Shown in pieces: positions 4,021 through 20,637 of a stretch of 21,404 nt of DNA (position 1 is its first letter; the number at the start of each line of letters is the position of its first letter). The translations under genes were made by a program, and so were the position numbers. The notes beneath the pieces are model-generated. The model was not told where the DNA came from. It saw only the letters and a program-made list of their open reading frames with translations, and ran no database searches. The DNA lies in IMG/VR virus record IMGVR_UViG_3300045999_009021, positions 1 to 21,404 of that record, one strand, 5' to 3'. The stretch comes from a virus.

Positions 4021-4200
4021 ATGTCAGATAAAGTTTTAACAAGTGTTAAGATACAACCCGAACTCTTTGAAGAGTTTAAGGTTGCTTGTGTAAGGCATAA
4101 ATTCTCATTACAAAAGCTTGCCGATCGATGTATTCATTTATATCTTACGGATGAGGATTTTAGAAAAAAAGTTCACAATCATAATAATTTAGAAATATGA
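4021..4200 (+). CDS. Ribbon-helix-helix (CopG/Arc-type) small DNA-binding protein (59 aa)
   Basis: This small gene encodes 59 residues from MSDKVLTSVKI to HNNLEI. TSVKIQPELFEEFKVACVRH (7-26) fits an RHH strand and first helix, followed by SLQKLADRCIHLYL (29-42) as the second helix. RHH proteins dimerise and insert a two-stranded sheet into the DNA major groove, usually acting as repressors. The gene follows the longest gap in the window and ends in an ATGA overlap with the first glycosyltransferase, so it heads the glycan island. Autoregulation through the AT-rich gap upstream is plausible but inferred. An inverted repeat, AACTCT/AGAGTT with a TTGA loop, lies at 4061-4076. Confidence 0.8.
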   Translation: MSDKVLTSVKIQPELFEEFKVACVRHKFSLQKLADRCIHLYLTDEDFRKKVHNHNNLEI

Positions 4201-5630
4201 AACCAGGTTACATTCCAAGAGAAAAACGTAAAAAAATTCTCCTAATGTGTGATGACATTAGGACACATTCCGGTATAGGAACAGTTGCTAAAGAAATTGT
4301 AATTCATACAGCTCATCACATTAATTGGGTAAATGTTGGAGCTGCTATTAATCATCCTGAAGCAGGTAAAAGATTTGACTTAAGCCAAAACACAGGTGAA
4401 TTAGCAGGCGTTGATGATGCTTCAGTTATCTTATACCCAAGTAATGGATATGGTTCTCCTGATCTAGTTAGACAATTAATAGATATGGAAAAACCAGATG
4501 CTATATTCATTATTACTGATCCTAGATATTGGGTATGGTTGTTCCAAATTGAAAATGAGATTAGGAAAAAAATTCCTATTATTTACTTAAATATTTGGGA
4601 TGATTATCCGGCACCAATGTATAATGATGCTTTCTATGAATCATGTGATTTGTTGATGGGTATTTCAAAACAAACTGTAAATATTAATAAGTTAGTACTG
4701 GGGGATAAGGCTAAGAATAGATTAATTAAGTATGTCCCTCATGGTTTGAATCATGAAATTTTTAGACCTTTAGATAAGGAAGATGAACAGTTAGTTGAGT
4801 TCAAGAAAAACTTATATAAGGATAAGGAAATAGAGTTTGCAGTTTTGTTTAATTCTAGAAATATTAGACGTAAACAAGTACCTGATACTATTTGGGCCTA
4901 TAAGATGTTTGTTGATAAGTTGCCCTTAGAACAAGCTAAAAAATGCGCTTTGGTTTTACATACTCAACGTGTTGATGAGAATGGAACTGATTTGCCTGCT
5001 GTTATTGATATGTTGTGTGGTGATGATGAAAGGTATAACATCATATTCTCTGATCAAAGACTTGATCCTTATGGTATGAATTTGTTGTATAATAGTACTG
5101 ATTGTCAAATACTATTGACTTCAAATGAAGGGTGGGGTTTAAGTTTAACTGAGGCTTTATTGGTTGGAAATCCAATTATAGCTAATGTTACTGGTGGAAT
5201 GCAAGACCAGATGAGATTTGAGGATGAAAAAGGATTATGGATTGATTTTGATGATCAGTTCCCTTCAAACCATAGAGGTAGATATAAAAAGTGCGGCCCA
5301 TGGGCATTCCCAGTATTCCCAACTAGCATTTCAATAGTAGGTTCAGTTCCAACACCTTATATCTTTGATGATAGATGTGAACCAAGTGATGCAGCTGAAA
5401 AGATTTTTGAAGTATACAGTTTAAGCCCTGATGAAAGAAAGGCTAGAGGATTATTAGGCAGAGAATGGGCTATAGGAGATGAAGCCGGATTTACTTCAGC
5501 TCAACAAGCAGAACGTGTTATTGAAAATATAGAAGAATTGTTTGCTAATTGGACACCTAGAAAAAATTATCACATAATTAAATGTGATCCTGTTAAGAAA
5601 AAAGTTGCACCTCATAATTTAGTATATTAA
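4197..5630 (+). CDS. GT-B glycosyltransferase, GT4-like
   Basis: This is a predicted retaining glycosyltransferase that moves a sugar from a nucleotide donor to an unknown acceptor. The 477-aa protein begins KKILLMCDDIRTHSGIGTVAKE read in parts (12-33), with the glycine-rich N-terminal loop of GT-B enzymes. A linker region PHGLNHEIFRP follows (181-191), then FNSRNIRRKQVPDTIWAY (218-235), matching the GT4 'R..-K' donor-site segment. The C-terminal donor motif SNEGWGLSLTEAL has E311 and E319 in the E-x7-E arrangement. The C-terminal tail of about 100 residues is longer than in minimal GT4 enzymes. There is no membrane segment. It starts within the RHH gene's stop (ATGA) and abuts another GT-B gene. 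Confidence 0.87.
   Translation: MKPGYIPREKRKKILLMCDDIRTHSGIGTVAKEIVIHTAHHINWVNVGAAINHPEAGKRFDLSQNTGELAGVDDASVILYPSNGYGSPDLVRQLIDMEKPDAIFIITDPRYWVWLFQIENEIRKKIPIIYLNIWDDYPAPMYNDAFYESCDLLMGISKQTVNINKLVLGDKAKNRLIKYVPHGLNHEIFRPLDKEDEQLVEFKKNLYKDKEIEFAVLFNSRNIRRKQVPDTIWAYKMFVDKLPLEQAKKCALVLHTQRVDENGTDLPAVIDMLCGDDERYNIIFSDQRLDPYGMNLLYNSTDCQILLTSNEGWGLSLTEALLVGNPIIANVTGGMQDQMRFEDEKGLWIDFDDQFPSNHRGRYKKCGPWAFPVFPTSISIVGSVPTPYIFDDRCEPSDAAEKIFEVYSLSPDERKARGLLGREWAIGDEAGFTSAQQAERVIENIEELFANWTPRKNYHIIKCDPVKKKVAPHNLVY
4240..4263 (+). other. Potential RNA hairpin early in the first glycosyltransferase gene
   Basis: TCCTAATGT (4240-4248) is exactly complementary to ACATTAGGA (4255-4263) around a 6-nt loop, GTGATG. 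The perfect 9-bp stem begins 43 nt after the ATG at 4197 and 40 nt after the RHH stop. It is one of the clearest members of the early-coding hairpin pattern described in the findings. Confidence 0.42.
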
Positions 5631-8429: not shown

Positions 8430-9572
8430 ATGAAAAAAATATGGTATGCTCCTAATAAATTTGAATCCTACGGGGAAGAAGAAATTAAAGCTGTAGAACA
8501 ATGTCTTAGAGATGGTTGGTTAGCTGGTTTTGGTCCTCGTTCAATTGAATTTGAAGAAAAAATAGCTAAATTTTTTGGTAAAAAATATGGTGTCTTTGTT
8601 AATTCTGGTTCATCAGCTTGTTTACTAGCTTTAGCTAGTTTACAACTCCCTAAAGGAACTAAGATAATTACACCAGCATGTACATTTTCCACCACATTAG
8701 CTCCTATTATTCAATTAGGACTTGTTCCTATATTTGTAGATGTAGATTTAACCACATATTGTGCTAATGTAGAGGAAGTGTTAGCAGCTGTTGATAATGA
8801 AGTAAAAGTGCTTATGATACCTAATTTAATAGGTAATAAACCAAATTGGAAAGCAATTAAAGATGGCTTAGCAGCTATAGGAAGAGAAGATATCGTCCTG
8901 ATTGAAGACTCAGCCGACACAATAACACACACCCCAGAAACGGATATAGCTACAACTAGTTTCTATGCTAGCCATGTTATTACAGCTGGTGGAGCTGGGG
9001 GTATGGTAATGTTTAATGATGAAAAATTAAGAAATGTATCATTACAATTTAGAGATTGGGGTAGGATAGGTGACAACTCTGAAGAAATGTCAGATAGATT
9101 TAATCATAATGTAGATGGTATTCCATATGATTATAAATTTTTATATGGAGTATTAGGTTATAATATGAAATCTTCTGAAATGAATGCTGCTTTTGGTTTA
9201 GTTCAACTTGAAAAATTTAAACAATTTGAACAAATTAGACGAGCTAATATTGAACGTTATATTGAAAATCTTCAAGGAGTAGGTGATATTATATTACCTG
9301 ATGATAGTATTAAGCCTAATTGGTTAGCTATCCCACTCCAAACTGAAAAACGATATGAATTACTTCATTTCTTAGAAGAGAATAATATACAAACAAGAGT
9401 AACATTTGCAGGTAATGTAACACGTCATCCTGTTTATAGAGAATATTTGCAAGAATTTAATAATTCAGACACTATCATGAAAAACGGTTTCTTATTAGGT
9501 GCTCATCATGGTATGACTGTTGAGGATGTAGATTATGTTTGTGATAAAATTAAAGAATTTTTTAATAAATGA
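8430..9572 (+). CDS. DegT/DnrJ/EryC1/StrS-superfamily PLP enzyme, RfbH-like sugar 3-dehydrase type (His for Lys)
   Basis: This predicted PLP/PMP enzyme acts on a nucleotide 4-keto-6-deoxyhexose. The 380-aa fold is clear: RDGWLAGFGP (28-37), VNSGSSACLLAL (58-69), TPACTFSTTLAPI (81-93) and IEDSAD with D160 facing the cofactor nitrogen. Where aminotransferases have the Schiff-base Lys (SF.psK), this protein reads SFYASHVIT with H182. The same swap marks the 3-dehydrases RfbH/DdhC (E1) and ColD. YDYKFLYGVLGYNMKSSEMNAAFG (about 234-257, read in parts) also matches the RfbH-type GYN-K-tDMqAA block. The cysteines that follow RDWGR in E1 enzymes are missing (RDWGRIGDNSEEM), so the [2Fe-2S] route is unlikely. 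Deoxygenation at C3 is therefore the best guess. It shares 4 nt with the next gene. Confidence 0.85.
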   Translation: MKKIWYAPNKFESYGEEEIKAVEQCLRDGWLAGFGPRSIEFEEKIAKFFGKKYGVFVNSGSSACLLALASLQLPKGTKIITPACTFSTTLAPIIQLGLVPIFVDVDLTTYCANVEEVLAAVDNEVKVLMIPNLIGNKPNWKAIKDGLAAIGREDIVLIEDSADTITHTPETDIATTSFYASHVITAGGAGGMVMFNDEKLRNVSLQFRDWGRIGDNSEEMSDRFNHNVDGIPYDYKFLYGVLGYNMKSSEMNAAFGLVQLEKFKQFEQIRRANIERYIENLQGVGDIILPDDSIKPNWLAIPLQTEKRYELLHFLEENNIQTRVTFAGNVTRHPVYREYLQEFNNSDTIMKNGFLLGAHHGMTVEDVDYVCDKIKEFFNK

Positions 9573-10531
9573 AAGTAGTATATATAACAGGTTGTTTAGG
9601 TTTTATAGGTTCCTATGTTACTCGAGCTTGCCTTAAAAAAGGTTGGTATATAAAAGGTGTAGATAAAATTACATATGCTGCTAATAAAGATCTATTAGAA
9701 GAATTCAAACAATACCCTAATTTTTCATTTGTACATTGTGATATAAAAGATCTAGAATTTCTATATGATTGTGATTATGTTATTAATACAGCTGCTGAAA
9801 CCCATGTTGGTAATAGCATAGTTAAATCAGATGATTTTGTCCATTCAAATATAAATGGAGTACATCATTTGTTAGAGCTAATTAGAAATTTTAGACAAGA
9901 AGGAAAAGATGTACCTACATTATTTCATTTCAGTACAGATGAAGTATATGGAGATATAGAAAATGGTATTCATACTGAAAGTGATTTATTAAAACCAAGT
10001 AATCCTTATTCAGCTACTAAAGCTGCTGCTGATCAATTAGTATTAGCTTGGGGACGTACATATAATTTACCTTATATTATAGTTAGACCAACAAATAATT
10101 ATGGTATAGGACAATATGTTGAAAAACTTATTCCAAAAACATGTAAATATTTGAAACTAAATAAAAAAATTCCTTTACATAATTATGGAACCCCAATTAG
10201 AAATTGGTTACATGCTCAAGATACAGCAGATGCTGTTATTACAATTATTGAATCAGGAGTGAAAAATGAAATTTATAATATTTGTGGAGGATTTGAACAA
10301 TCTAATTTAGATACCGTAGAAAAAATTATTACATTATATAAGAACATTTTGATACCTAATAAGATTAATATGCATAAATATTGTGATTTTTCATTTAATA
10401 GAATAGGTCAAGATGTTAGATATGCTTTAGATGATTCTAAATTGAGATCCCTAGGGTGGGAACCAAAAATGAATTTTGATAAAGAATTAAAAAATATAAT
10501 AGAATATTACAAAGATAAATTTATATGGTAA
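9569..10531 (+). CDS. Nucleotide-sugar 4,6-dehydratase, RmlB-like extended SDR
   Basis: This is a predicted NAD-dependent enzyme turning an NDP-hexose into the 4-keto-6-deoxy sugar that feeds the neighbouring PLP enzyme. The 320-aa sequence has the NAD motif TGCLGFIGS (7-15), AAETHVGNSI (75-84), FSTDEVYG (121-128) with T123-D124-E125, the RmlB catalytic signature, and Y147-x3-K151 (YSATK). RPTNNYGIGQY and a RNWLHAQDTADA segment follow, as in RmlB. The Asp-Glu pair favours a dTDP-glucose type over CDP-glucose 4,6-dehydratases, which usually have TDK. It is a little shorter than bacterial RmlB (about 350). ATG overlaps the previous stop (ATGA), and the 3' end overlaps the ThDP gene by 7 nt. Confidence 0.88.
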   Translation: MKVVYITGCLGFIGSYVTRACLKKGWYIKGVDKITYAANKDLLEEFKQYPNFSFVHCDIKDLEFLYDCDYVINTAAETHVGNSIVKSDDFVHSNINGVHHLLELIRNFRQEGKDVPTLFHFSTDEVYGDIENGIHTESDLLKPSNPYSATKAAADQLVLAWGRTYNLPYIIVRPTNNYGIGQYVEKLIPKTCKYLKLNKKIPLHNYGTPIRNWLHAQDTADAVITIIESGVKNEIYNICGGFEQSNLDTVEKIITLYKNILIPNKINMHKYCDFSFNRIGQDVRYALDDSKLRSLGWEPKMNFDKELKNIIEYYKDKFIW

Positions 10532-12315
10532 ATAGAAAGGTTTTAGAATATTTAATAGATTGTTTATTACATAACAACATTGATACTTTCTTTTTAGTAA
10601 CAGGAGGAGCCATAGTACCTACTGTAGATTATATAGGTCAAAATCCAAAAACAAAATATTATTGTTTTCAACATGAACAATCAGCTGCAATGGCTGCCGA
10701 AGCCTATTTTAGAACAACTGGAAAGTTGGGAGTAGTATTAAGTACTAGTGGACCTGGAGCTCAAAATTTATTAAATGGGGTTTGTGGATGTTGGTATGAA
10801 TCTATACCTTGTTTATTTATAACAGGGCAGGTTAGTACATATGAATCTATAGATAGTATTTCTACTCAACCAAGACAATTGGGATTTCAAGAAATGCCCG
10901 TTGTTGAATCATTTAAACATTTTACTAAATTTGCTAAAAAAATAAATGATACCAATGAATTCCAAAACGACTTAGAAAATGCTATAAAAAATTGTTTTGA
11001 TGGAAGACAAGGTCCTAGTTTATTAGATATTCCAACCAACATTCAAAATAGTATTATCAATAACGAATTAATAACTTTTACATTAAATCCTAAAATTATT
11101 GATGCAAATTTAGATGATAAAATACAAATTATTAACGAAAAATTAAAATCAAGTAAAAGACCATTATTATTAATAGGACATGGAATTAGACTATCAAATT
11201 CAGTAAATAAAATTAATGTCTTAGTTAATAAATTAAAAATACCATTTGTAACATCTTGGGGTGGATTTGATATAATACCTCATGATCATTCTCAATTTGT
11301 TGGAGATATAGGAGTGTATGGAAGTAGGGGAGGAAATTTTGCTATCCAAAATTGTGATTTACTAATATCAATAGGTTCTAGATTAGACACCAGACAAACT
11401 GGGGGTGATTTAAAAACATTTTCTAGAGAATCATTTAAAGTAATGGTTGATGTAGATAAAAATGAAATATTGAAAGGTAGAGGATTAAATATAGATCTAC
11501 CTGTTATTTGTGATGCTGGAGTTTTTATTGAAGAATGGAGTAATAATTTATCTGAATTTGAAATAGATCAAAATTGGATTAATAAATGTAATGAATGGAA
11601 AAATCTAAAATTAGATAATAGATCTCTCAAACCAAACGTTTTGACTTCATATGAATTTTTAGAATATCTAAATACACAATTACCAAATGATTCAATAGTA
11701 TTACCTGATGAAGGAGGACATTTAGTTTGGTCTATGCAATCTTTGAAAACAAAACCTAATCAAAGGATATTCTCTAATTTTGGAAATTCATCTATGGGTT
11801 GGGGTTTACCAGCAGCTATAGGAGCAGCCGTTGATACAAATAAAATGATAGTTTGTATTGATGGTGATGGTGGATTCCAGATGAATATACAAGAACTTCA
11901 AACTATTAAACACTATAAACTACCTATTAAAATATTCATTATGAATAATAATTGTTATGGAATTATCAAACAATTCCAAGATGCTTATTTTAATTCAAGG
12001 TATACAGCAACAGAAAGTCATGATTATAGTGTACCTGATTTTATAAAAATAGCAAATGCTTATGGAATAAAATCGATAGAGGCTAATAAAGATAATTATA
12101 AAGATGTGGTTAGCTTGGCTCTTGAAGAAAAAGATAGTATATTGGTGAACGTAATTATAGATAGAGAACAAAAATTAACACCTAAACTTGAATTTGGGAA
12201 CCCATTAGAAGACATGTCCCCATATCTTACTGATGAACAAATCCAAAATAATATGATTATCGATATGATACCAAGAAGAGATAATACTCAAGGATGGGTA
12301 ACATTAAATAAATAA
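10525..12315 (+). CDS. ThDP-dependent carboligase, acetolactate synthase-like (possible YerE-type sugar carboligase)
   Basis: This full-length 596-aa thiamine-diphosphate enzyme has three domains. The N-terminal pyrimidine-binding domain has HEQSAAMAAEAYFR (50-63) with catalytic E51 and TSGPGAQNLLNG (74-85). A central domain (about 195-340) has SWGGFD and the GSRLD-type motif. The C-terminal pyrophosphate-binding domain has IDGDGGFQMN (445-454) through NNNCYG (474-479), the GDG-x26-NN motif. The length suits acetolactate synthase. No regulatory subunit gene or ilvC/ilvD is nearby. The flanking sugar 4,6-dehydratase and 3-dehydrase instead suggest the YerE reaction: adding a two-carbon acetyl unit from pyruvate to a keto-deoxysugar, as in yersiniose synthesis. 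Family membership is clear; the substrate is inferred. Confidence 0.88.
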   Translation: MVNRKVLEYLIDCLLHNNIDTFFLVTGGAIVPTVDYIGQNPKTKYYCFQHEQSAAMAAEAYFRTTGKLGVVLSTSGPGAQNLLNGVCGCWYESIPCLFITGQVSTYESIDSISTQPRQLGFQEMPVVESFKHFTKFAKKINDTNEFQNDLENAIKNCFDGRQGPSLLDIPTNIQNSIINNELITFTLNPKIIDANLDDKIQIINEKLKSSKRPLLLIGHGIRLSNSVNKINVLVNKLKIPFVTSWGGFDIIPHDHSQFVGDIGVYGSRGGNFAIQNCDLLISIGSRLDTRQTGGDLKTFSRESFKVMVDVDKNEILKGRGLNIDLPVICDAGVFIEEWSNNLSEFEIDQNWINKCNEWKNLKLDNRSLKPNVLTSYEFLEYLNTQLPNDSIVLPDEGGHLVWSMQSLKTKPNQRIFSNFGNSSMGWGLPAAIGAAVDTNKMIVCIDGDGGFQMNIQELQTIKHYKLPIKIFIMNNNCYGIIKQFQDAYFNSRYTATESHDYSVPDFIKIANAYGIKSIEANKDNYKDVVSLALEEKDSILVNVIIDREQKLTPKLEFGNPLEDMSPYLTDEQIQNNMIIDMIPRRDNTQGWVTLNK

Positions 12316-12328
12316 ATTAAAATAAATT

Positions 12329-13267
12329 ATGGCAGCAGATAGTAAAACTAAAAAAACAATTTTGACCTTAACTAATAATAAGGTTAAAGGTGAAAAAACG
12401 GTTCTTGTAACAGCATATGATTACCCTCAAGCTATTTTAGCTGATAGAGCTGGAGTAGACTGTATTTTAGTAGGTGATTCATTAGGAATGACCCAACTAG
12501 GATATAAAACAACAATTCCAGTTACAATGGAAGATATGATTAGAAGCTGTGAAGCCGTTAGTAGAGGTTCACAAAATGCCTTTTTAATAGGAGATATGCC
12601 TTACATGTCTTATCAACAATCAGACGAATTAGCTATTGAAAATGCTGGTAGATTTATTCGTGCTGGTATGGATATGGTAAAAGTGGAAGGAGCTATGGTT
12701 GACCGTGTAAGAGCTATATCCAGAGCAGGTATTATGGTTATGAGTCATTTAGGATTAACACCACACACTAGAGCTAAATTAGGTGGGTATAAAGTTCAAG
12801 GAAAAACAGCAGATCAAGCAGATATCATTTTACAACAAGCTTTAGCTTTACAAGAAGCAGGATGCTCAGCATTATTATTAGAAGCTATGCCTAAAGAACC
12901 AGCAGAAATGATTGCTAAACAATTATCTATCCCTGTATATGGAATTGGTGGGGGAGATGGAGTTGATGGTCAACTAGTAATTTTTCATGATTTGACTGGT
13001 TTATTTTGGGAATTTAAATCTAAATTTGTAAAACGTTATTGTGAAGCTGGTAAAATTATCCAAGATGCTTTGGAACAATATGTTGATGAAGTCAAATCAG
13101 GTATATTTCCCTCCTCAGAAAATTTCTATGAAATTAAAGAAGATGAATTAGAAAAATTATTAGGGGATGATAAATGGAAATATGAAAAGGATAGAGTTGA
13201 AAATAATGCTGTTCCTAATCATAGTGTTACCCCTATAACTTCAAGACCGACTGAGATAAAAAGATAA
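12329..13267 (+). CDS. panB: 3-methyl-2-oxobutanoate hydroxymethyltransferase (ketopantoate hydroxymethyltransferase), PanB family
   Basis: PanB adds a hydroxymethyl group from methylene-tetrahydrofolate to 2-oxoisovalerate, the first committed step to pantothenate. The match is strong along the TIM barrel: VTAYDYPQAILAD (27-39), ILVGDSLGMTQLGY (46-59), IGDMPYMSY (87-95), MVKVEG (116-121), SHLGLTPH (139-146) and LLLEAMP (182-188). The metal and catalytic positions equivalent to E. coli D45, D84, K112, E114, H136 and E181 are present (D50, D89, K118, E120, H140, E185). A polar C-terminal extension of about 45 residues goes beyond bacterial PanB (about 264 aa). No panC, panE or panD is present. 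Its place between a sugar ThDP enzyme and an SDR raises the option of a sugar-linked keto substrate. Confidence 0.9.
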   Translation: MAADSKTKKTILTLTNNKVKGEKTVLVTAYDYPQAILADRAGVDCILVGDSLGMTQLGYKTTIPVTMEDMIRSCEAVSRGSQNAFLIGDMPYMSYQQSDELAIENAGRFIRAGMDMVKVEGAMVDRVRAISRAGIMVMSHLGLTPHTRAKLGGYKVQGKTADQADIILQQALALQEAGCSALLLEAMPKEPAEMIAKQLSIPVYGIGGGDGVDGQLVIFHDLTGLFWEFKSKFVKRYCEAGKIIQDALEQYVDEVKSGIFPSSENFYEIKEDELEKLLGDDKWKYEKDRVENNAVPNHSVTPITSRPTEIKR

Positions 13268-14181
13268 TGAAGAAAATTTTAATTACGGGAGGAAATGGAT
13301 TTTTAGGTTCTAATTTAGTTAAAAGATTATTAAAGGAAGGTCATAGTGTTTATGTTCTTTCTAGGAGTAATGTTAATTTAGAAGATGTACTAAGTAATAT
13401 AAAATTTAATTCTGCTTCAAATAAAGATTTTTCATTATATAAAAAAGACATTTATAAATTTTCACCTGATGTAGTTTTTCATTTTGGGTGGAATGGAGGA
13501 AATAATTATAAAGATGTTAATGATATATCTCAATTTTATGATAATGTTGGTTATGGTATTGAATTAATTAATATTTTAAATGAATTGCCTAAAAAACCTA
13601 AATTCATTGGTATTGGGAGTTTTTCCGAATATGGAGAACAAAAAAATATTATAACTGAAGAAACATTAGAACTACCTTTAAATTTATATGGTTTATCAAA
13701 ACTTACATTTAAAAAATATAGTGAAATGCTTTGTAAACAATATGAAATGGAATGGGTATGGGTACGTCCATGCTATGTATATGGACCTAAAGACGTTCCT
13801 ACCAGATTAATACCTACTCTTATAAATAAATTTTTAACTAATCAACCAGTAAAATTAGATAAATGTGACACAATTATTGATTATATATACATTGATGATT
13901 TTATTAATTTTATTTATAATTTAACTCTATCTAATAATACAGGAACATATAATATATGCTCAGGACAAGAATATGAATTAAAATATGTTATTTCTCAATT
14001 ATATGATTTAGTGAACAGTAAAAGTGATATTACATTTGATGGTATAAATATGAAATCATCTGTTTCAAAATATATTTGTGGAAGTAATGATAAAATAAAA
14101 AAAGTCACAAACATAGACTGTGAAACAGATTTAAAAACAGGATTAATAAAAACAATAAATTATTATAAAAATAACAAATGA
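13267..14181 (+). CDS. NAD(P)-dependent extended SDR (sugar reductase/epimerase/dehydratase)
   Basis: This 304-aa extended short-chain dehydrogenase acts on a nucleotide sugar. The cofactor motif is TGGNGFLGS (7-15), a catalytic Ser region GSFSEYG is at 117-123, and Y141-x3-K145 (YGLSK) is the active pair, followed by RPCYVYGP. It lacks the TDE signature of 4,6-dehydratases, so a reductase or epimerase is more likely. Its place after the dehydratase, 3-dehydrase and carboligase suits a final keto-reduction, as YerF does in yersiniose synthesis. That role is inferred from context only. The start shares one base with the panB stop. It is more AT-rich and lysine/asparagine-rich than panB, like the following GT genes. 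Confidence 0.83.
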   Translation: MKKILITGGNGFLGSNLVKRLLKEGHSVYVLSRSNVNLEDVLSNIKFNSASNKDFSLYKKDIYKFSPDVVFHFGWNGGNNYKDVNDISQFYDNVGYGIELINILNELPKKPKFIGIGSFSEYGEQKNIITEETLELPLNLYGLSKLTFKKYSEMLCKQYEMEWVWVRPCYVYGPKDVPTRLIPTLINKFLTNQPVKLDKCDTIIDYIYIDDFINFIYNLTLSNNTGTYNICSGQEYELKYVISQLYDLVNSKSDITFDGINMKSSVSKYICGSNDKIKKVTNIDCETDLKTGLIKTINYYKNNK

Positions 14182-16978: not shown

Positions 16979-17968
16979 ATGAAAGAAAAAAATATATTAG
17001 TAATATATAATATTTGTGGAATTAAATTTGATAATTTAGAAATGTGGTTAAACCATGTTCAAGATATTTTAAATCAAAAATATTCTAAATTTACAGTTGC
17101 CATTTCAGGATGTGTTGTTTCTGATAATAGTAAAAAAGAATTAGAAAAATTAAAAACCAAATATTCCAATGTAGTTTTTAATTGGATAGAAGATATTCTC
17201 CCAGTAAATGTAACCTTTAACCATACCGCTCAGATTTGTACTGAACAGTTAAGAGAATTTGATGGTTATCTTTATATAGCATCTGATGTTAAATTTGGTA
17301 ATGATACTGAAGTTTTACAAAAATTATCATATCTTCATCAAAATAGTAATAGTGCTATTACATATGCTTTAGTAAATAATGACCATGGTTTAGATGGATG
17401 GTATCCTGAAGTTTGGAGTGACTTAGATAATTTATTAGAAACTGATCATTTCTATATCAATATAGGAAAAACAGCAAATATGCATGTTGCATTATTTGAT
17501 AAAGAAATTTATACTAAATACAACTCTCAAATCATCCCAGACATTTTTGCTACTCATTGTACTGAAACTACATATAGTTATTTAGCAGCTTCATTAGGTA
17601 AAAAGTTTGTTATTCATAATAAAGATATTATGTTGGGTCATATTGGTTTCGCTGATGGGCATAGTATTGGGTTTATTGGAGAAATTAAATATGATGATAA
17701 ATTAAGTTGGAAACACTTATTTAGATCATCCATATCAGCTGAAGAGAGATTATTAAGCGAAGAAGCAAAACTTAGCGGTTTTGGTTATGGAGAATGGAAA
17801 GAAGTTCTTATGCCAGGAGAATACATTTTACATCGAGATAAAACCATGTATGATGAAGATGAAAATCATATAGAACCTCAAAAATTACTTGATTTTCTTA
17901 AAAAAGCCATTTATCTTTCTCAAGATGAATTTAATTATAGCGATATTAAATATCAATTCATAACATGA
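16979..17968 (+). CDS. Putative GT-A/GT2-like glycosyltransferase (329 aa)
   Basis: This is likely a glycosyltransferase-fold protein of unknown substrate. An N-terminal Rossmann-like half runs ILVIYNICGI (6-15) to KFTVAISGCVVSDNSKKEL read in parts. GYLYIASDVKFGND (96-109) aligns with the DxD strand of GT2 proteins; here it reads D103-V-K, so the second Asp is missing. HVALFDKEIYTKY and PDIFATHCTETTYSYLAASLGKKFVIH follow (about 188-215), which looks like the acceptor-domain helix and strand of GT-A enzymes. The altered DxD raises the possibility of a metal-independent or non-catalytic protein. It lies 2 bp after the SDR gene and overlaps the radical SAM gene by 4 nt. Confidence 0.65.
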   Translation: MKEKNILVIYNICGIKFDNLEMWLNHVQDILNQKYSKFTVAISGCVVSDNSKKELEKLKTKYSNVVFNWIEDILPVNVTFNHTAQICTEQLREFDGYLYIASDVKFGNDTEVLQKLSYLHQNSNSAITYALVNNDHGLDGWYPEVWSDLDNLLETDHFYINIGKTANMHVALFDKEIYTKYNSQIIPDIFATHCTETTYSYLAASLGKKFVIHNKDIMLGHIGFADGHSIGFIGEIKYDDKLSWKHLFRSSISAEERLLSEEAKLSGFGYGEWKEVLMPGEYILHRDKTMYDEDENHIEPQKLLDFLKKAIYLSQDEFNYSDIKYQFIT

Positions 17969-19512
17969 TAGATGTATTATTTATTACCCCAGGTAATGCT
18001 AACGGAATATATCAAAATTTAGCTGATAATTATGCCGCTATTGAACCACCAACTTGGGCTCTATTACTAGCCCAATCATGTCGATCTATAGGACATACTG
18101 TTGCTCTTATAGATGCTAACGCAGAACAGTTAGACAAAGAAACAGTAGAACAAAGAGTAAGAGAGTTAAACCCACGTTTAGTTTGTTTTGTTGTCTATGG
18201 GCAGAATGTCAACTCAGGCACAGTTAATATGAGTGGTGCTACCTATTTATCTAAACATTTGAAAAAAGTAGGTATAAATATTCCTATAGCTTATATAGGC
18301 TCATATGTACAAGCTGTTCCAGTTAAAGCTCTTGAAGAAGAATCATCAATTGATTTTGCTTTCACTAATGAGGGAGTTTATGCTTTAAGAAATATACTAG
18401 CCCAAGAAATAATAGATCTTAATAATTTAAACCATATTAAGGGTATTGTTTGGAGAGAAAATGGAGTCCCAAAAATAAATGGGGCTGAAAAAATAGTCCC
18501 AAATGATAAAATGGACATTGACCTACCTGGGTACGCTTGGGATTTGCTTCCAATGAAAGAAAAACCACTTGATCTATATAGAGCTCCTATGTGGCACGCT
18601 GAATATGATCAAAATAAACGCTCACCTTACGCTGCTATTCAAACCTCTTTAGGATGTCAATTTGGATGTGACTTTTGTATGATTAACATTTTAAATAGAA
18701 ATGATGAGGAGGAAATTGGAGTAGCTGGAAATTATAGCTTAATGAGACATTGGTCACCTGAGTTTATTATTAAAGAATTTGATAAATTAGTTGATTTAGG
18801 TGTGTATACCATTAAGATAACTGATGAGATGTTTCTATTAAATAGAAAATATTATGTTCCTCTTTGTGAACTACTAAGAGATAGAGGCTATGGTAAATTC
18901 CTTAGAATGTGGGCATACTCAAGAGTAGACACTGTTCGACGTCCTGAATTACTTAAACTAGTAAGAGAAGCAGGTATTAAATGGTTAGCGTTAGGTATTG
19001 AAAGTGGTGACAAATCAGTTCGTTTAGAGGTATCTAAAGGAAAATTTGAAGATGTAGATATTAATAAGGTAATTGAACAGGTACATGAAGCTGATATTGA
19101 GGTGATGGCTAACTATATTTTTGGACTCCCAGGTGATACTAAAGAGAGTATGCAAAAAACTTTGGAATTATCAAAAGAGTTATGTACATTTGGATGGAAT
19201 GCTTATGCCGCTATGGCTTTACCTGGTAGTCAATTATATAAAAATGCCTTAATGAATAAAATATCTTTACCAAATACTTATGAAGGTTATTCATTTCATA
19301 GTTATGATACACTACCTTTACCTACTGACACATTAAGTGCTGCTGAAGTGTTAATGTTTAGAGATAAAGCCTTTGAAGAATATCATTTATATCCTTTATT
19401 TCAAGAAAAAGTAAGGACTAAATTTGGTCAAATAGCAGTTGATAATATTAATGAAATGTTAAAAATTAAATTAAAAAGAAAAATAATTGAAAATGAACAA
19501 TCTTCTAACTAA
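17965..19512 (+). CDS. B12-binding-domain-type radical SAM enzyme
   Basis: This is a predicted radical enzyme that splits S-adenosylmethionine through a [4Fe-4S] cluster. In the 515-aa protein, residues 1-145 form a cobalamin-binding-like Rossmann domain (DVLFITPG, EPPTWALLLAQSCRSIGHTV, VCFVVYGQ). I see no D-x-H-x-x-G motif, so any B12 would bind base-off without His. C231-x3-C235-x2-C238 (SLGCQFGCDFCM) is the cluster-binding site, followed by the TIM barrel with KITDEMFLLN, WLALGIESGD and GLPGDTKESM. This layout fits class-B-like methyltransferases or anaerobic rearrangement enzymes of the HpnJ/BchE group. It sits directly before the split ThDP pair, overlapping it by 20 nt, suggesting shared work on one substrate, perhaps a sugar carbon. 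Confidence 0.85.
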   Translation: MIDVLFITPGNANGIYQNLADNYAAIEPPTWALLLAQSCRSIGHTVALIDANAEQLDKETVEQRVRELNPRLVCFVVYGQNVNSGTVNMSGATYLSKHLKKVGINIPIAYIGSYVQAVPVKALEEESSIDFAFTNEGVYALRNILAQEIIDLNNLNHIKGIVWRENGVPKINGAEKIVPNDKMDIDLPGYAWDLLPMKEKPLDLYRAPMWHAEYDQNKRSPYAAIQTSLGCQFGCDFCMINILNRNDEEEIGVAGNYSLMRHWSPEFIIKEFDKLVDLGVYTIKITDEMFLLNRKYYVPLCELLRDRGYGKFLRMWAYSRVDTVRRPELLKLVREAGIKWLALGIESGDKSVRLEVSKGKFEDVDINKVIEQVHEADIEVMANYIFGLPGDTKESMQKTLELSKELCTFGWNAYAAMALPGSQLYKNALMNKISLPNTYEGYSFHSYDTLPLPTDTLSAAEVLMFRDKAFEEYHLYPLFQEKVRTKFGQIAVDNINEMLKIKLKRKIIENEQSSN

Positions 19513-20098
19513 AGAACAATTAATCTTTTTTGAAGATAATATAGCTGAGTGTTTCAATAACGCTATGATTAAAGCTCCTATTCATTTATACTATGGAAAT
19601 GAAGAGCAAATGATTGATATATTCAAAAAAGTACAACCTGAAGACTGGATATTTTGTACTTGGCGTTCACATTATCAGTGTTTACTTAAGGGAGTACCCC
19701 AAGAACAGATAAAAAAAGATATATTAGAAGGTAAATCTATTACCCTCTGTTATCCTGAATATAATATCTACTCCTCAGCTATTGTAACAGGTAATATTCC
19801 TATTGCTACAGGTGTTGCTTTAGATATTAAACACAAAGGAGGAACAAATCATGTTTGGTGTTTTGTAGGTGATATGACATCTGAGACAGGTACTTTTTTT
19901 GAAAATTGGAAATATGCTGTTAATCATGATTTGCCTATTACATTTGTAATTGAAGATAATGGCAAATCAGTTTGTACAACTACTAAAGAAGTATGGAATG
20001 ATGATTTATATTTTAAAAATGAAACAAGAAAGATAATTTATTATCAATATGAAACTAAATATCCCCACGCTGGGGCTGGTAAGCGAATTCAATTTTAA
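19493..20098 (+). CDS. ThDP-dependent enzyme, E1-alpha-like subunit (pyrophosphate-binding domain)
   Basis: This 201-aa protein carries the thiamine-pyrophosphate-binding domain of two-subunit dehydrogenase/transketolase-type enzymes. The hallmark GDMTSETGTFFENWKYAVNH (126-145) through FVIEDNGKS is the GD-x28-N motif, with G126, D127 and N156. Upstream, FCTWRSHYQCLLKGV (54-68) matches the R/S-H-x-x-x-L-x-x-G segment of E1-alpha, and SAIVTGNIPIATGVAL (95-110) the GS-mPiA-G-A segment. It is much shorter than bacterial E1-alpha (about 320-370), lacking most of the N-terminal region and the C-terminal tail. ATG 19493 is preferred to TTG 19487. It needs the pyrimidine domain supplied by the next gene, 2 bp downstream. 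Confidence 0.85.
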   Translation: MNNLLTKEQLIFFEDNIAECFNNAMIKAPIHLYYGNEEQMIDIFKKVQPEDWIFCTWRSHYQCLLKGVPQEQIKKDILEGKSITLCYPEYNIYSSAIVTGNIPIATGVALDIKHKGGTNHVWCFVGDMTSETGTFFENWKYAVNHDLPITFVIEDNGKSVCTTTKEVWNDDLYFKNETRKIIYYQYETKYPHAGAGKRIQF

Positions 20099-20100
20099 TC

Positions 20101-20637
20101 ATGAAATACTTTGACGAATTAAAACGATCAATGGATTGGCTTAACGAAAAGCCAGATACATTCTTTTTAGGCCAAGCTGTAACATACGCCGGCACAGCTA
20201 TGACTAATACAGTTAAAGATGTTAATCCATCTAAAATGTTAGAAATGCCTGTAAACGAAGATATGCAGATGGGAATGACAATTGGAATGGCGTTGAACGG
20301 TACTGTTCCTATCTCAATTTATCCACGTTGGAATTTTCTTTTATTAGCTGCTAATCAAGTAGTTAATCACCTAGATAAAATGAAAATAATGTCAGGTGGT
20401 GGGTACACACCTAAAGTAATCATTAGAACATCAATTGGATCACAACGTCCTCTTCACCCCCAACATCAACATATAGCTGATTTTACAGCGGGATTTAAAG
20501 CAATGTGTGATTGGGTTGATATTATTAGGCTAGATGAACCTCATCAAATATTTGAAGCTTTTCAATATGCTTACGAAAGAACAGATAATCGTCCTACTAT
20601 TTTAGTTGAATGGGGAGATTATTATGGAGAAAAATAA
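20101..20637 (+). CDS. ThDP-dependent enzyme, E1-beta-like pyrimidine-binding subunit
   Basis: This 178-aa partner of the preceding protein is a transketolase pyrimidine-domain (E1-beta N-terminal half). EMPVNEDMQMGMTIGMALNG (48-67) matches the E1-beta 'P-I-s-E-x-x-x-x-G-x-A-x-G' segment, with E53 as the catalytic Glu that activates ThDP. PISIYPRWNFLLLAANQVVNH read in parts (70-90) and SQRPLHPQHQHIADFTAG (114-131), a His-rich active-site loop, follow. The C-terminal transketolase_C domain present in normal E1-beta (about 325 aa) is missing; the frame stops cleanly after EWGDYYGEK, so this is a designed short form, not a visible frameshift. Together the pair would form a minimal ThDP lyase or carboligase. 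Its substrate is unknown. Confidence 0.84.
   Translation: MKYFDELKRSMDWLNEKPDTFFLGQAVTYAGTAMTNTVKDVNPSKMLEMPVNEDMQMGMTIGMALNGTVPISIYPRWNFLLLAANQVVNHLDKMKIMSGGGYTPKVIIRTSIGSQRPLHPQHQHIADFTAGFKAMCDWVDIIRLDEPHQIFEAFQYAYERTDNRPTILVEWGDYYGEK
20137..20154 (+). other. Potential RNA hairpin early in the E1-beta-like gene
   Basis: TGGCTT (20137-20142) pairs with AAGCCA (20149-20154) around the loop AACGAA. It starts 36 nt after the ATG. It is short and individually weak. Confidence 0.2.

Follow-up and report, generated by a model that had tools for sequence, protein, structure and literature searches.

The window, a complete IMG/VR virus record of 21,404 bases that is probably a fragment, encodes a His-type DegT protein that lacks the iron-sulfur ligands of CDP-4-keto-6-deoxy-D-glucose 3-dehydrase (E1) and that is not a lone oddity but one member of a broad bacterial and viral clade, here termed type A (Table 1). 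Type A is an uncharacterised sister group of E1. Taken as a whole, the observed sequence, clade, absent ligands, predicted fold and gene linkage are best explained by a cluster-free, PMP-dependent 3-dehydrase that probably acts on an NDP-4-keto-6-deoxyhexose through a ColD-like cycle and feeds a thiamine diphosphate (ThDP)-dependent enzyme. The virus source setting is marine/freshwater.

Table 1. Coordinates of the type-A gene, its diagnostic residues and the genes downstream of it in the window.
Feature	Positions	Strand	Remarks
Type-A (iron-sulfur-free) His-type DegT protein, 380 aa	8430..9572	+	Proposed PMP-dependent NDP-4-keto-6-deoxyhexose 3-dehydrase
His182 codon (E1 His220 / ColD His188 position)	8973..8975	+	Codon computed from residue number
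E-D-S-A-D, residues 159-163	8904..8918	+	Ala162 at the place of E1 Cys193
R-D-W-G-R-I-G-D-N-S-E-E-M-S-D-R-F, residues 208-224	9051..9101	+	E1 Cys251/Cys253/Cys261 loop, here without Cys
RmlB-like NDP-hexose 4,6-dehydratase	9569..10531	+	TIGR01181 306.6 bits, below the 365.1 cut-off; 4-base overlap with the 3-dehydrase gene
ThDP-dependent carboligase	10525..12315	+	Best PDB matches 5ahk and YerE-like JanthE 8rph
PanB-like, ketopantoate hydroxymethyltransferase family	12329..13267	+	TIGR00222 282.5 bits, above the 207.55 cut-off; catalytic positions kept; proposed 2-oxoacid donor maker
NAD(P)-dependent SDR	13267..14181	+	Candidate ketoreductase of a branch or ring carbonyl

The window protein and the type-A clade

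A check against the sequence found the ORF, its coordinates and strand, and the motifs quoted in an earlier note on this DNA to be exact. That note had placed a His at the Schiff-base position and reported the loss of the E1 iron-sulfur cysteines, and both observations hold. H182 of SFYASHVIT aligns with E1 H220 and ColD H188 (the former column is K in the H220K chain 3bb8; the latter is N in 3b8x and K in 2r0t), and all four positions that we take to be the [2Fe-2S] ligands of E1 (Cys193, Cys251, Cys253, and Cys261) are without Cys in the window protein. In the alignment, EDCCD of E1 pairs with EDSAD, with Ala162 at the place of Cys193, and RDWGRDCYCAPGCDNTC of E1 pairs with RDWGRIGDNSEEM, which occupies the place of the loop carrying Cys251, Cys253, and Cys261 and provides a counterpart to none of them. 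The DegT/DnrJ/EryC1/StrS family profile (PF01041) gave 246 bits (cut-off 19.8), and the NCBIfam RfbH model (NF011936) gave 270.7 bits, below its curated cut-off of 423. By sequence, the best solved relatives were E1 (215.7 bits) and then ColD (137.1 bits); 9wvy, a putative NDP-4-keto-6-deoxyglucose 3-dehydratase, was also among the solved-structure matches.

No Lys that would reach PLP occurs at the Schiff-base column in either the viral or the bacterial alignment. K236 was considered for this role and rejected, since the aligned E1 rows retain it just as type A does. Among 90 type-A sequences, not one Cys position is fully or almost fully conserved, and there is thus no conserved replacement cluster elsewhere in the protein. 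Both results favour the earlier note, which had named a Lys of this kind and a Cys cluster as grounds for refuting it. Cys64 and Cys84 (81/81 and 80/81 in viruses, respectively) were set aside as a candidate cluster, these positions being mostly Asn/Leu in bacteria.

The viral scan found 195 relatives, of which 80 loci (76-97% identity) were kept; with the window's own copy, 81 viral members were aligned, and His182, Asp160, Ser161, and Asp163 are present in every one. The genome scan found 104 bacterial relatives and 80 were kept (38-78% identity); it favours the TTSFYASH motif, because that motif is one of its two patterns. All 80 bacterial loci have His at the Schiff-base column, and none has the E1 loop. 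Hosts of type A include Pelagibacteraceae, SAR86, Prochlorococcus, Flavobacteriales, Rhodospirillales, Legionellales, and Patescibacteria, and for some of the MAG contigs (60-78% identity) a viral origin or recent acquisition is possible. Across 157 distinct type-A sequences the CxC...C loop is absent throughout; 119 of them have Ala at position 162 and the other 38 have Cys. The types were set by motif, with type A requiring S-H and type B (E1) requiring CxC, so that the counts of Ser in 157/157 and CxC in 80/80 are circular, being built into the definitions; the absence of the loop from type A is not. A motif-independent census, in which the RfbH model was run over 487 genomes, returned 73 places in 71 genomes. 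Sixty of the 73 could be typed, as 27 E1-type loci with the Cys loop, 18 of type A, and 15 of ColD type, with His in 60/60; all 27 E1-type proteins scored above the RfbH cut-off and the other 33 below it.

Type A is nearest in sequence and fold to E1 (also RfbH, DdhC, AscC; PDB 3bcx, 3bb8). The window protein and E1 share the catalytic His, D163 (E1 Asp194), and W210-G-R; like E1, type A occurs in CDP-sugar clusters, as seen in Flavobacteriales. Unlike E1, type A lacks the [2Fe-2S] ligand loop, has Ala (or Cys) at the place of Cys193, has His-Val/Ile where E1 has His-His, and has xGxGG, with one extra residue, in place of GEGG (with Glu). The window protein also lacks the N-terminal stretch of E1, and differs from it in its RfbH score. 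With ColD, the GDP-4-keto-6-deoxymannose 3-dehydratase (PDB 2gms, 3b8x, 3gr9), the window protein shares the lack of a cluster and the catalytic His; the Ser preceding this His is a further resemblance, although its count is circular because the type-A motif demands Ser. In contrast, ColD belongs to a separate clade, is the more distant match (137 vs. 216 bits for E1), and has RAHGWTR where the window protein has RDWGR. SpnQ, a TDP-4-keto-2,6-dideoxyglucose 3-dehydratase, is likewise of His type and needs no dedicated E3, but it binds a [2Fe-2S] cluster (PMC8987622, available part), whereas type A is without the Cys loop; the tree described below was built without the SpnQ sequence.

Gene neighbourhood and a proposed viral sugar module

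The window genes run in a tight row in the order 3-dehydrase, RmlB-like, ThDP enzyme, PanB, and SDR. Across the 80 viral loci, the type-A gene starts a variable stretch that follows a conserved glycosyltransferase block. Bacterial context was assessed at 79 type-A loci by clustering genes by similarity and scanning representatives (L148 was left out, its gene having been lost in ORF selection). At least one sugar-nucleotide gene lies within six genes in 64/79 loci; by class, SDR/dehydratase genes occur within this distance in 62 loci, RmlC-like in 34, RmlA-like in 20, and cytidylyltransferase in nine. At the Flavobacteriales locus L143, a glucose-1-phosphate cytidylyltransferase (379.2 bits, above 300.25), a CDP-glucose 4,6-dehydratase (444.6 bits, above 278.45), and RmlC-like and RmlD-like genes adjoin the type-A gene; judged by its gene content, this is a CDP-dideoxysugar setting where E1 would be expected.

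Virus scans with the window's own proteins gave 19 loci for the ThDP enzyme and 94 for PanB, of which 80 were kept. A ThDP gene lies within 2.5 kb of PanB in 79/80 viral PanB loci, and a His-type 3-dehydrase is present in the fetched stretch of 67/80 (E1-type in 53, ColD-like in nine, and type A in five; none was found in 13), although these linkages do not count as independent events, because the sets include near-copy contigs and contigs common to both. Together, the two linkages suggest that PanB has been repurposed. The ThDP and PanB partners of type A are not fixed, since a ThDP gene occurs in only 27/80 and a PanB gene in 4/80 viral type-A loci within the fetched stretch. Among the 19 ThDP loci, genes similar to those of the window (RmlB at least 55%, ThDP at least 60%, and PanB at least 60% identity) accompany E1 in six and type A in three; loci without RmlB add a further three with type A and one with E1. 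Different 3-dehydrases therefore stand beside the same downstream enzymes, which is the strongest sign that the type-A product is the E1 product.

PanB adds a hydroxymethyl group to a 2-oxoacid at the carbon adjacent to the keto group, and could therefore supply a hydroxylated donor. The residues that we take as its catalytic site and numbering (D45, D84, K112, E114, H136, and E181) are kept in 72/72 sequences (71 viral PanB ORFs and that of the window). Against solved structures, the window ThDP protein matched 5ahk, presumably a YerE homologue, at 300.6 bits and JanthE 8rph at 292.6 bits, with all other entries at or below 231.6 bits. YerE is described as extending CDP-3,6-dideoxy-4-keto-glucose by a two-carbon unit, and ErwE as having a preference for hydroxylated 2-oxoacids (PMC12247030). 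The YerE-like enzymes (YerE, ErwE, JanthE) resemble the window ThDP protein in their association with a 3-dehydrase, of the kind seen in yersiniose synthesis; the window protein differs in being viral and in belonging to a group often paired with PanB, which the accessible parts of these two sources do not mention (PMC12247030, PMC12188165). This gene content suggests a branched-sugar module in which PanB would make the 2-oxoacid donor. Nucleotidyltransferase genes were not found in 18 of the 20 viral records searched (which may be fragments), and the NDP-sugar would thus come mostly from the host. A PanB match in a record named Microcystis phage MaAM05 was rejected as a member of the module: it lies near panC and suf genes, an ordinary cellular context.

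The ThDP and PanB genes might instead have nothing to do with sugars, and serve as acetolactate synthase and ketopantoate hydroxymethyltransferase for host valine and coenzyme A, with the sugar genes as mere neighbours. Both proteins do fall in those families by profile, PanB above its equivalog cut-off and with its catalytic positions intact. We nevertheless regard such a role as unlikely, given that the ThDP protein scores below the acetolactate synthase cut-off (382.8 vs. 538.35 bits), that 5ahk and YerE-like 8rph outscore the other solved acetolactate synthases, that a His-type 3-dehydrase accompanies most viral PanB loci, and that neither a ketol-acid reductoisomerase (KARI) above cut-off nor a pantoate ligase was found in 20 viral records, in a search that detected its controls.

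A wider scheme, which we offer tentatively and would rate a little short of an even chance, is that many marine/freshwater tailed viruses carry a module for branched sugars: a 4,6-dehydratase and an E1, type-A or ColD-like 3-dehydrase would yield a 3,6-dideoxy-4-keto sugar, a repurposed PanB would hydroxymethylate a 2-oxoacid to give a hydroxylated donor, and the two would be coupled at C4 by a YerE/ErwE-like ThDP enzyme. In this scheme, the ancestor would have been hydrolytic and E1 would have acquired its cluster later.

Two further features of the window lie outside the row of genes described above. Short proteins encoded at 19487-20098 and 20101-20637 resemble the alpha and beta halves of the pyruvate dehydrogenase E1 component, a second ThDP class, and similar pairs occur beside ThDP/PanB genes at L239, L247, L284, and L293; the attachment of an acetyl branch in avilamycin has been tentatively assigned to AviB1/AviB2 (PMC4753412, available part). 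A B12-binding radical SAM protein is encoded at 17965-19512, with relatives adjoining PanB at L266, L269, L271, L277, L285, and other loci; methylation of the sugar or of the donor is a possible function.

Phylogeny, predicted fold and the origin of the E1 cluster

In a midpoint-rooted tree of 77 rows, in which the Lys rows are long-branched, type A (32 rows; support 100/99) and E1 type B (23 rows; 100/98) are sister groups, and the two together are supported at 99/94. A separate clade (100/99) unites the ColD types with a small viral group, and His-type proteins are split from Lys-type proteins at 100/100. The window protein lies outside both the E1 clade proper and the ColD clade, and groups with E1. 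One row, L085_320_1489, is a His protein placed among the ColD types. The simplest history would be one in which E1 gained its cluster, rather than type A having lost it: because ColD and the Lys proteins are also without a cluster, a single acquisition on the E1 stem is more economical than two losses.

A further viral His-type group (EDxCAAL...SFYFGHQL), also without the Cys loop, comprises L269, L294, L266, and L275; three of these four are in the tree, where they form a long branch of their own next to the ColD types. At L245:16734-17642, a DegT-like frame truncated by the contig end shows Gln in the catalytic column, probably because the alignment is shifted next to its His.

An initial structural model, built from 16 close relatives, had a poor active site (pLDDT 66.3) and was set aside. 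The second model, from 90 sequences, reached a pLDDT of 94.8 and a pTM of 0.92. VIA-align ranked E1 first (Z 45.7/45.6; rmsd 1.9 over 358 residues for the match at Z 45.7), ahead by a small margin of ColD (43.9) and of the remaining DegT entries listed (41.6-44.7), most of which are aminotransferases; Foldseek likewise returned E1 as the top match. The predicted fold alone has no power to tell a dehydrase from an aminotransferase.

The DegT fold is common to aminotransferases (Z about 42-45), and transamination is also described for SpnQ without its reductase and for E1 H220K (PMC8987622, available part), both of which are compatible with a His-type aminotransferase that makes a 4-amino-4,6-dideoxy sugar with no C3 deoxygenation. 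This alternative is nonetheless quite unlikely. The column holds His and not Lys in 81/81 viral and 80/80 bacterial members, and in the tree type A joins E1 among the His proteins, away from the Lys rows. Moreover, the ThDP enzyme could not act at C4 of a 4-amino sugar, but type-A and E1 enzymes replace one another next to the same ThDP and PanB genes.

Proposed mechanism and electron supply

E1 is the textbook PMP enzyme coupled to an iron-sulfur cluster. Three types of 3-dehydrase are distinguished in the available part of one source: E1 and SpnQ, with a [2Fe-2S] cluster and electrons from outside, and the cluster-free ColD, in which the intermediate is hydrolysed and PLP is recharged by glutamate; in all three, the reaction opens with formation of a Schiff base to PMP and removal of a proton by the His (PMC8987622). 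For type A, we infer the substrate, the glutamate step, the product, and C4 branching as follows. The enzyme of the overlapping RmlB-like gene would supply the substrate. PMP would condense with the C4 ketone of the sugar, and His182 would take a proton from the cofactor as the 3-OH departs. With no [2Fe-2S] cluster, E1-style reduction of the intermediate would not take place; instead, the intermediate would be hydrolysed to an enamine, and loss of ammonia would give the 3,6-dideoxy-4-keto sugar. An amino donor, for example glutamate, would regenerate PMP from PLP, as in ColD, and the product would pass to the ThDP enzyme, which would add an acyl group from a 2-oxoacid at C4.

The retention of His together with the absence of the cluster makes a ColD-like cycle the likeliest completion of the reaction, and type A is accordingly expected, by analogy, to share the hydrolytic, glutamate-recharged cycle described for ColD (PMC8987622, in part). 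ColD-like turnover is argued from missing parts, there being no positive ColD signature in type A. The suggestion in the earlier note of a PMP/glutamate-driven dehydrase like ColD on an RfbH scaffold thus emerges as the best reading, with glutamate use proposed by analogy; it draws on the E1-sister tree, the fold nearest to E1, the missing ligands, the retained His, and the exchange with E1 in viral clusters. The other option raised there, a new reaction, is conceivable but not needed.

If this reading is correct, a large cluster-free sister of E1 would show how C3 can be deoxygenated either reductively or hydrolytically on a common scaffold, and enzyme swaps would allow a test of whether the cluster was gained and not lost. 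Annotation pipelines place type-A proteins near RfbH despite their sub-cut-off scores. The viral setting adds the testable idea that PanB supplies unusual 2-oxoacid donors for sugar branching by ThDP enzymes. A literature search that covered a minority of subscription papers returned no title or abstract start on an E1 sister clade lacking the cluster, or on a viral sugar module with PanB and a ThDP enzyme.

The earlier note had also pointed to the lack of an E3 reductase nearby. None was found among the scanned window ORFs, but this carries little weight, since a Fer2 gene lies within 10 kb in only two of the 27 genomes with cysteine-type E1 (G399, G368). Fer2, FAD_binding_6, and NAD_binding_1 were sought with Pfam in 20 of the 22 listed window ORFs (smaller ORFs being outside the scan) and had no match; the remaining two (41-871 and 4197-5630) have PHROGs matches to GroEL and a glycosyltransferase, respectively. 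For type A, Fer2 lies within 10 kb in one of 18 genomes (G423), and the proximity of an E3 was discarded as uninformative for telling E1 from type A (2/27 vs. 1/18, on contigs that may be broken). By its size (437 aa), the Fer2 frame in G423 is a candidate NqrF.

It is distinctly improbable that type A is an E1-like reductive dehydrase without its own cluster that takes electrons from an outside donor, such as free flavin, ferredoxin, or another protein. Its position as the E1 sister group and the retained W-G-R part of the loop would fit such an enzyme; in opposition, the CxC...C loop is missing in 157/157, NAD_binding_1 had no match in the 20 viral records searched (possibly fragments), and four of 16 type-A genomes (the four may be small or incomplete assemblies) have no Fer2 gene at all, compared with 0/27 for E1 at a stricter E-value. 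A search with a ferredoxin motif regular expression gave only chance-looking matches. A decayed, inactive E1 that has lost its cluster would also lack the ligands, but is scarcely credible given that H182, D160, S161, and D163 are common to all 81 viral copies, and given the occurrence of type A in many bacterial phyla, and a median identity of the type-A gene over 80 viral loci (80%) that is above that of widely shared neighbour genes (approximately 35-73%).

Cysteine-loop E1-type 3-dehydrases occur in many viruses (L083, L084, L085, and L231-L323), including cyanophage S-B05. By analogy with SpnQ, which can use host ferredoxin, these viral enzymes may rely on the ferredoxin of the host.
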